Below are positions 14,396 through 18,606 of a DNA stretch of 32,061 nucleotides, in pieces (position 1 is the stretch's first letter; each line of letters starts with the position of its first letter). The translations under genes and the position numbers were made by a program. The stretch is from Bacteroidota bacterium. Lineage in GTDB: Bacteria; Bacteroidota; Bacteroidia; Cytophagales; Cyclobacteriaceae. The notes beneath the pieces are model-generated. The model saw only the letters and a program-made list of their open reading frames with translations. It did not search any database and had not been told where the DNA came from. The stretch is taken from positions 1 to 32,061 of the forward strand of contig JAQCJI010000023.1 of NCBI GenBank assembly GCA_027593175.1, given 5' to 3'.

Positions 14396-14920
14396 TTATT
14401 CCAAAGTCTCTACAGCCTGAATAGCAGCCCTCAGCCTATCCTTACTTTCTCCAGCCACCAGTGCCCAAGGAAACCCGCTTATTTCGGTTATTTGCTGGTA
14501 CATTTCAAAAAACTGTTGCCGCATTTCGAGTTCGGGGTGCTCTCGGAGTGGATCTGTTTGCCAGGGAAGGTCGGGAGCACAAAGTAGAATTAGGTCGTAG
14601 GTTCGTCGGGCCATTTCCTCCAGAACCCAGGGATCTACTTTACCATAGCGGTGCTGGGACCAGACCTGAATCACGCGAAGGTCGGTATCACAAAAAAGAA
14701 AATGTTTGGCAGTCGAAGCCAACTCGTCTTCTAGGCTCATTTGGTAGCTCCCAATTTGGACCAAATCGGCATAGACGTAATGGCGGTTTAATCCTTCCAG
14801 GTAGGCTCTAGCTACTTCCGGCACCCAAGGCTCTCCATAGTGCTGTGCCAGCTTCTCGGCCAAGGTGCTCTTTCCCGTGGACTCAGGGCCTAAAATTAGA
14901 ATACGCTTAGGCCTTTTCAT
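14396..14920 (-). CDS. NadR-type P-loop kinase (probable nicotinamide riboside kinase)
   Basis: 174 aa, AAA_28/NadR C-terminal family. The Walker A GPESTGKST is at residues 11-19. FCDTDLRVIQVWSQHRYG around 75-92 is the family Asp-rich motif, and YDLILLCAPDLPWQTDPLREHP is the LID-like region. The adenylyltransferase domain of full-length NadR is absent, so only kinase activity is predicted: phosphorylation of nicotinamide riboside to NMN. The ATG overlaps the end of pnuC by 14 nt, meaning transporter and kinase are co-translated and would trap imported riboside. A related thiamine-type pair is an alternative, but I see no TPP riboswitch upstream. Confidence 0.85.
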   Translation of the reverse strand: MKRPKRILILGPESTGKSTLAEKLAQHYGEPWVPEVARAYLEGLNRHYVYADLVQIGSYQMSLEDELASTAKHFLFCDTDLRVIQVWSQHRYGKVDPWVLEEMARRTYDLILLCAPDLPWQTDPLREHPELEMRQQFFEMYQQITEISGFPWALVAGESKDRLRAAIQAVETLE

Positions 14921-15524
14921 CGATTTTCACAGCTTGGATCCATGCCACTAGACCTGCAGTGGCAAGGCCTGTAAAAAGAAGGTACTGAAAAGAAGTAAGG
15001 TAAAGCTCCTTGTGAAAATAGAGGGGAATCGACACCAGGTCCGTCAAAATCCAAAATATCCAGTTTTCTACTTTTTTCTTCGCCATCAGCCACATGGCTA
15101 CAAAGGCCGAGGAAGTAGTAAAGGAGTCCCAATAGGGAACCGTACTGTCCGTAAACTGGATTAAAACAGTCACCAAAACTGGATAGGAAAAGGTAAAAAT
15201 ACCCAAGGAGACTAACCATCCTCTCCCATCGAGCCGAGTGACGGCTAAGGGCTGATTATCTTTTTTAGGCTTTTTCCACAGGTACCAGCCATAAATAGAC
15301 ATCCCAAAATAATAGGCATTGATTCCCATATCAGCATAGAGGCCGGATTCAAAGCAAATCCACACATAAATTAGGACTGAAACAATGCCACTTGGGTACA
15401 CCCAAATGTGCTGCTTCATGGAAAAATACACCGACAAGATCCCCATAAATACAGCGAAAGCCTCCAGCCAACTGAGTTGCTGCATGCCGTCTGCCAGGCC
15501 TTGGAAGAGTGCTTCGGAATTCAT
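14907..15524 (-). CDS. pnuC: PnuC family nicotinamide riboside transporter
   Basis: 205 aa from the ATG at 15524; a 16-codon upstream extension exists but gives no family sequence. About seven hydrophobic helices are visible. The PnuC signature lies in INAYYFGMSIYGWYLWKK, with Trp80 and Trp83 in the conserved W-x-x-W. PnuC proteins are facilitators that import nicotinamide riboside and depend on a cytosolic kinase to trap it. That kinase is encoded by the next gene, overlapping by 14 nt. PnuT thiamine carriers look alike, so the substrate is assigned from the partner gene. The upstream region carries an inverted repeat shared with uvrA. Confidence 0.88.
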   Translation of the reverse strand: MNSEALFQGLADGMQQLSWLEAFAVFMGILSVYFSMKQHIWVYPSGIVSVLIYVWICFESGLYADMGINAYYFGMSIYGWYLWKKPKKDNQPLAVTRLDGRGWLVSLGIFTFSYPVLVTVLIQFTDSTVPYWDSFTTSSAFVAMWLMAKKKVENWIFWILTDLVSIPLYFHKELYLTSFQYLLFTGLATAGLVAWIQAVKIDEKA

Positions 15525-15618
15525 GTTACGAAGAAAGGAATAAATTTGACAGCCAAAAATCTTGACCAGCAAGAAATTTTAGTTCTTCTAAGTCAAATTT
15601 ATCTATAAGAGGTAACAT
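15523..15618. promoter_or_regulatory. Inverted-repeat region between pnuC and uvrA with a -7 box in each arm
   Basis: On the plus strand, ATGTTAC (15523-15529), 11 bp and TAAATTTGAC (15541-15550) face their reverse complements GTCAAATTTA (15592-15601), 10 bp and GTAACAT (15612-15618). Each 10-bp arm contains a perfect -7 element TAAATTTG, the left one reading toward uvrA and the right one toward pnuC. The two predicted transcripts would overlap by about 30 nt. Seventeen of 17 arm bases match. It could be a divergent promoter pair or an operator for a dimeric regulator; the 5' part of the left arm overlaps the pnuC start codon. Confidence 0.6.
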
Positions 15619-15657
15619 TTCCTTCACTTGACAGGTTTGATTGCTAACTTGCACCCA

Positions 15658-18459
<2,802 letters not shown>

Positions 18460-18531: not shown

Positions 18532-18606
18532 GGAATCTTAGCTCAGCTGGTTTAGAGCGCTGCTTTGACAGAGCAGAGGTCATGGGTTCGAATCCCTTAG
18601 GTTCCA
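18532..18606 (+). tRNA. tRNA-Val (anticodon GAC)
   Basis: A full cloverleaf can be drawn. The acceptor stem GGAATCT pairs with AGGTTCC (one T-G pair), and the D-arm contains AGCTCAGCTGGTTTAGAGC. The anticodon stem CTGCT/AGCAG encloses the loop TTGACAG with anticodon GAC. The T-arm has GGTTCGAATCC. The discriminator is A at 18606. CCA is not encoded. GAC reads the valine codons GUC and GUU. Confidence 0.96.

Follow-up and report, generated by a model that had tools for sequence, protein, structure and literature searches.

In the window, by which we mean the whole 32,061-nucleotide stretch of DNA that was analysed (contig JAQCJI010000023.1, assembly GCA_027593175.1, Cyclobacteriaceae), the genes pnuC and uvrA are divergent and share a spacer of 133 bp, measured from start codon to start codon. 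This spacer contains a conspicuous inverted repeat, which the initial annotation read as a symmetric promoter region, and which raises the question whether the symmetry has a function or whether each gene depends on signals of its own. Based on the comparison with related genomes, we favour, with a probability of about two in three, the reading that uvrA has a conserved, near-leaderless promoter and that the symmetry seen in the window is a lineage-specific coincidence.

Materials and methods

The genus sample comprised 72 searched genomes, of which 69 gave a uvrA match. The box proximal to the uvrA start was counted over all 69 genomes, and the distal and pnuC-directed boxes over 58 (14 from the clade described below and 44 others). 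Counts upstream of pnuC refer to the 50 stretches that contained the pnuC start. For uvrA outside the genus, the best 80 of 588 loci were taken and the 13 belonging to the genus were removed, leaving 67 loci; in five of these the stretch scanned contained no in-frame ATG. The UvrA tree had 46 rows, 42 from the genus and four outsiders, with G032 and G094 left out. The assembly that contains the window (the own genome) amounts to 2.49 Mb in 117 contigs with a completeness of 83.5%. Its gene starts follow a simple longest-ATG rule, and genes too near the end of a stretch were skipped.

Results

The pnuC-uvrA locus

The gene pnuC is located on the reverse strand at 14907..15524 and encodes a protein of the nicotinamide mononucleotide transporter family (Pfam PF04973, E 5.3e-62); its start ATG at 15524-15522 lines up with the starts in relatives. 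On the same strand, 3' of pnuC and overlapping its end, lies a gene for an AAA_28 protein (14396..14920; Pfam PF13521, E 6.5e-36), which may be a NadR-like kinase. The gene uvrA, with its Pfam UvrA domains, occupies 15658..18459 on the forward strand, and all 69 genus genomes examined have an ATG at the aligned place that matches the start ATG at 15658. Downstream of uvrA a tRNA gene was found at 18532-18606, the sole Rfam match in the window at the gathering threshold. A second UvrA-like protein (G000:C99:1825-4611, L002) was 46% identical over query residues 18-933.

Among the best 80 of 588 matches, the nearest named records to the UvrA protein were mostly Algoriphagus species and metagenome-assembled genomes. 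One record, CAMDLI010000004.1, is named Spirosoma fluviale and has a UvrA 91% identical to that of the window; its organism name looks wrong. In the UvrA tree, 14 Algoriphagus-type genomes, the window's and G036 among them, were monophyletic with 100/100 support, and G002 was sister to the other 13. The assemblies that stand for this clade are small and fragmented. Read from coordinates, pnuC and uvrA are divergent neighbours at most about 600 bp apart in 32 of 48 genus genomes, the own genome included. They are about 0.7-2 kb apart in six and more distant or on separate contigs in seven; in the remaining three at least one of the two genes had no match at the cut-offs used.

The inverted repeat and its facing boxes

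The letters of the inverted repeat are exactly as they had been described. The left outer word ATGTTAC (15523-15529), which overlaps the pnuC start codon (15522-15524) and a TTCG element, is followed after an 11-nt gap by the left inner arm TAAATTTGAC (15541-15550), and the right inner arm GTCAAATTTA (15592-15601) precedes, with a 10-nt gap, the right outer word GTAACAT (15612-15618). The outer pair and the inner pair are each exact reverse complements, the inner one being perfect over 11 bp (15540-15550 and 15592-15602). The annotated -7 box in each arm, aimed at opposite genes, was also confirmed, with TAAATTTG conforming on either strand to the -7 consensus of Bacteroidota. The box directed at uvrA (15541..15548, forward strand) has a predicted start near 15553 and a leader of 105 nt; the one directed at pnuC (15594..15601, reverse strand) has a predicted start near 15589 and a leader of 65 nt, so that the two predicted transcripts overlap by 37 nt. 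The boxes share the TAnnTTTG (TAHHTTTG) letters of the Bacteroidota sigma-ABfr/sigma-A promoter but differ from it in that neither facing box has a TTG within the preceding 30 nt, so that the uvrA-directed one has no -33 TTG/TTTG element, and their starts are predicted ones. In Flavobacterium johnsoniae the -33 motif is described as 'much less evident' (PMC6847099). A hairpin formed by the arms in RNA was set aside because the predicted forward transcript starts just inside the left arm, and an arm-mediated flip of the loop was ruled out, since the alignment of the loop with relatives runs in direct orientation.

Symmetry of this extent is not rare. When the 133-bp gap was put through 1000 dinucleotide shuffles, six of them produced a perfect inverted repeat of at least 11 bp. 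In a 432-kb sample of the genome, 43 divergent gaps measured 20-600 bp, corresponding to an estimated 250 or so in the whole genome; at that rate, one or two repeats this long would be expected by chance, assuming similar gap lengths and composition. Facing -7 boxes 20-60 nt apart are not uncommon either, with 31 pairs in the genome as compared to 22 in back-to-back arrangement. The inner arms of the window were the longest unbroken run among the 31 pairs. A complementary outer word of 7 bp was present in 2 of these 31 and one of at least 6 bp in 7 of 31 in the same search. The exact match of the outer words, to which the initial annotation attached weight as going beyond what the boxes need, is thus real in the window but lies near the chance level.

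A possible, though rather unlikely, explanation of the arrangement is that both facing promoters are active in the window's species, in which case the first approximately 37 nt of the two messages would be complementary and the genes might disturb each other, either by colliding polymerases or by pairing of the 5' ends. In its favour, each box agrees fully with the -7 consensus, both are also found in G011, and facing pairs exceed the control in the genome (31 versus 14). However, such pairs are not confined to divergent gaps: seven of the other 30 were in divergent gaps, four in co-directional ones and 18 within or overlapping a predicted reading frame, with one unplaced. Boxes of both orientations were seen in 6 of the 43 sampled divergent gaps; they were facing in two (the window's and one other) and back-to-back in two.

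The relatives further argue against two active facing promoters, as TAnnTTTG directed at pnuC is absent from 12 of the 14 clade genomes. Only the window and G011 have TAAATTTG there; CAAATTTG takes its place in 11 and a further variant in G002. A pnuC-directed box with any nn was found in 4 of the 44 non-clade genomes, and TAHHTTTG within 200 nt before pnuC in 3 of the 50 stretches (window, G011 and G080). The feature that all 50 stretches share is TTCG, 3-4 nt upstream of the pnuC ATG, located in the window at 15529..15532 on the reverse strand, 4 nt upstream of the ATG. As a general promoter element it was rejected: T[AT]nnTTCG occurred four times at -16 to -8 as compared to 0.19 per position elsewhere, the positions were scattered, and TTCG itself was not enriched at the start-proximal place among the sampled genes of the own genome. 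For these reasons we regard it as a feature specific to pnuC.

A start-proximal box upstream of uvrA

Outside the coordinates of the inverted repeat, a -7 box was found 13-14 nt upstream of the uvrA ATG in 66 of the 69 genus genomes. In the window it reads TAACTTGC (15645..15652, forward strand), 13 nt before the ATG, with a predicted start at the ATG or 1-2 nt before it. The TAHHTTTG form was present in 49 of the 69 genomes, as TAACTTTG (41 genomes) or TATCTTTG (seven) at -14 and as TAACTTTG at -13 in one more. In another 17 the box is one T shorter, TAAnTTGC at -13, and in the last three (G022, G042 and G094, the first two being sisters in the tree) it reads TAACTTTA instead of TAACTTTG. The shorter form is invariant, apart from the n, in all 14 clade genomes, and occurs also in G015, G090, G032 and, as TAAATTGC, in Belliella aquatica. 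By our reading of the tree the T was lost in at least four separate changes (the clade, G015, G090 and B. aquatica; G032 was outside the tree).

Beyond the genus, TAHHTTTG was located 2-9 nt before an in-frame ATG in 24 of the 67 uvrA loci from the best 80 of 588; the reversed motif and the reverse complement gave 0 of 67 each in this same set. The 24 loci include Belliella, Aquiflexum, Cognataquiflexum, Echinicola, Cyclobacterium, Lunatimonas and Fulvivirga, again among the best 80 of 588. Among the signals of the spacer, the proximal box is, by sequence conservation, the most widely conserved one for uvrA.

Further upstream on the forward strand, positions -45 to -40 of uvrA form an AACTTT block with 1.1-1.6 bits per column over 48 aligned genomes; the copy of this block in the window is degenerate (AACATT, 15614-15619) and is mostly contained in the right outer word. 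From 0.06-0.33 bits per column between -60 and -55, the information climbed to almost 2 bits in the box and spacer, where position -11 was always C, -12 mostly A and -2/-1 always CT. As the 48 rows had been chosen for TA and TTTG, only C at -11, C at -2, T at -1 and the AACTTT block are independent of that choice.

In the own genome, TAHHTTTG was found 60 times within 100 nt upstream of 334 predicted genes as compared to 7 times for the reversed motif, and by this enrichment TAnnTTTG is a promoter signal there. At exactly -12 it preceded 8 of 331 predicted ATGs, compared to 0.6 per position elsewhere (Poisson 2e-7), indicating that start-proximal boxes are a real class in this genome. Eight predicted genes had TAHHTTTG at exactly -12 and two had it at -13 (L253-L272); a box at -12 ends 4 nt from the ATG, and these positions suggest a class of leaderless genes. 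The shorter motif TAnnTTGY was found 21 times before predicted genes as compared to 6 for its reversed form, and six times at -16 to -8 (uvrA included) versus 0.19 per position elsewhere, which is no more than suggestive of a promoter signal.

The distal box in the clade

The uvrA-directed half of the inverted repeat is a feature of the whole clade: TAnnTTTG occupies -116/-117 of uvrA in 13 of the 14 genomes, G002 being the exception. Its nn is AA, AT or TT across the clade and the other letters are kept, as expected of a -7 box. The conservation of the arms in relatives, which the initial annotation had proposed as a check, accordingly holds for the uvrA-directed box and fails for the pnuC-directed box and the outer words.

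As the proximal box of the clade is off the sigma-A consensus, the distal box could be the main uvrA promoter in these small genomes, with the proximal TAAnTTGC as a dead relic. None of the 13 clade genomes with the distal box has the sigma-A form near the uvrA start, and of the 44 genomes outside the clade, 40 show the proximal form and two a box in the corresponding interval (-90 to -160). On the other hand, the conservation of TAAnTTGC throughout the clade is unlike that of a relic and argues against simple decay, and G002 is without the distal TAnnTTTG. We consider a main distal promoter with a dead proximal box unlikely, at about the level of the two active facing promoters.

Pairing of the arms in relatives

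The outer words pair over 7/7 positions in the window alone, over 5/7 in G011 and over 3-4/7 in the remaining 12 clade genomes. The left position reads ATGATGC in 12 of the 14 genomes and the right one GTAACTT or TTAACTT, likewise in 12. The left word overlaps the conserved start element of pnuC and the right one sits on the copy of the uvrA AACTTT block, so each belongs to the start region of a different gene. The inner arms pair over 11/11 positions in the window; eight relatives have 10 of these pairs, one has 9, three have 8 and G002 has 7. Compared to the clade-typical sequence, four changes in the arms of the window improve the pairing and two more swap one pair on both sides. Since the arms of the relatives are less alike than those of the window, the likeness probably grew recently.

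An operator in which one regulator binds both arms, coupling the uptake of NAD precursors to DNA repair, was one of the two proposals of the initial annotation and appears very improbable. It would account for the perfect inner arms, for an inner pairing of at least 8/11 in 13 of the 14 clade genomes, and for one paired position where both letters differ, the window having C..G and 11 relatives G..C. The best evidence for it, the changes that raised the symmetry in the window, comes from a single genome, itself chosen because it is symmetric here. The half-sites are not conserved in the 13 relatives (outer words 3-5/7, inner arms 7-10/11), the outer words fall within two separately conserved elements, and in G003, G020 and G096 the inner arms pair over 8/11 only even though TAnnTTTG is kept. 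In addition, the composite ATGTTAC-N8-14-TAnnTTTG has no other copy in the genome, and TAAATTTGAC is only slightly more frequent than its control (13 versus 8 over both strands).

A regulator for such an operator was also looked for. Neither the NrtR winged-helix domain (PF21906) nor the LexA DNA-binding domain (PF01726) gave a match in the own genome, where, at 83.5% completeness, absence is no proof. Of 71 genus genomes, seven had a PF01726 match, including three clade members (G027, G098 and G099), and 64 had none; a match need not be LexA, because the model also matches in archaeal control genomes.

The weakest proposal, that the two promoters arose from a common ancestor by inverted duplication, was rejected on the arm sequences of the relatives and is scarcely credible: both words are common to two units of 27-28 nt in the window, but the words are separated by spacers that differ in sequence, the words are less alike, not more, in the 13 relatives, and the outer words lie in different elements that are each conserved more widely in the genus. 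Taken as a whole, the original interpretation was partly supported.

Discussion

In our preferred reading, the proximal -7 box would direct RNA polymerase to start at the uvrA ATG or within about 2 bases of it, if the box is taken to occupy -12 to -5 relative to the start (PMC9723704), and the uvrA message would be leaderless or nearly so. The AACTTT block would be part of the same upstream region. In the clade of the window the proximal box is one T shorter, TAAnTTGC in place of TAACTTTG, and the second box, TAnnTTTG about 116 nt upstream, is kept; from it a further uvrA transcript, this one with a leader, may arise. The near-perfect symmetry would have come about, without any function, when base changes close to the start of pnuC, in the clade-conserved CAAATTTG and in the AACTTT block chanced to match.

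Some observations count against parts of this reading. Leaderless mRNAs are a minority class in the Bacteroidota: they account for 5.5% in Flavobacterium psychrophilum (PMC9723704), leaders below 10 nt for approximately 3.7% in Bacteroides thetaiotaomicron (PMC7366714), and in F. johnsoniae 87% of the predicted transcripts have leaders longer than 10 nt (PMC6847099). The uvrA box, some 4-6 nt ahead of the start codon, would place the gene in this known minor class. Moreover, the spike of start-proximal boxes in the own genome is at -12 with zero at -14, while those of uvrA are at -13/-14. The coincidence is weakened by the symmetry-improving changes in the arms of the window, as these would also be expected under selection for an operator. 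Among the papers listed in a literature search, no title concerned a leaderless uvrA in Bacteroidota, nor, again by title, a transcription start-site map of Algoriphagus.

The shorter proximal box of the clade, TAAATTGC or TAACTTGC, resembles motif SM5 of F. psychrophilum, TAnnTTGY, one of three motifs that are most likely due to alternative sigma factors (PMC9723704). The fit includes the pyrimidine and extends to all 14 clade genomes, but it is not independent evidence, because the loss of one T from TAACTTTGC yields TAnnTTGY automatically. The facing boxes, in turn, recall the bidirectional promoters with symmetric -10 elements in that a symmetric promoter sequence is read from both strands. 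In those promoters the -10 positions overlap reciprocally and the distance from one start to the other is 7-25 bp, mostly 18 (PMC10268837), whereas here two separate boxes face each other and the predicted starts are 36 bp apart.

A more far-reaching scenario, which we put forward as distinctly doubtful, is that the uvrA of the Cyclobacteriaceae has a long-conserved leaderless promoter in which losing one T (TAnnTTTG to TAnnTTGY) can transfer recognition from the primary sigma factor to another one, as would have happened separately in four or more lineages. The second, leadered promoter would go along with this change in the reduced-genome clade, and the control of nucleotide excision repair would be rewired in a genus in which most genomes show no LexA DNA-binding domain. 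To our knowledge, the control of excision repair in Bacteroidota without LexA has been little studied.

The comparison with 13 close relatives thus dismantles the symmetric 'operator' and puts in its place a better-supported box next to the uvrA start, in which a change of one base may switch the class of sigma factor.
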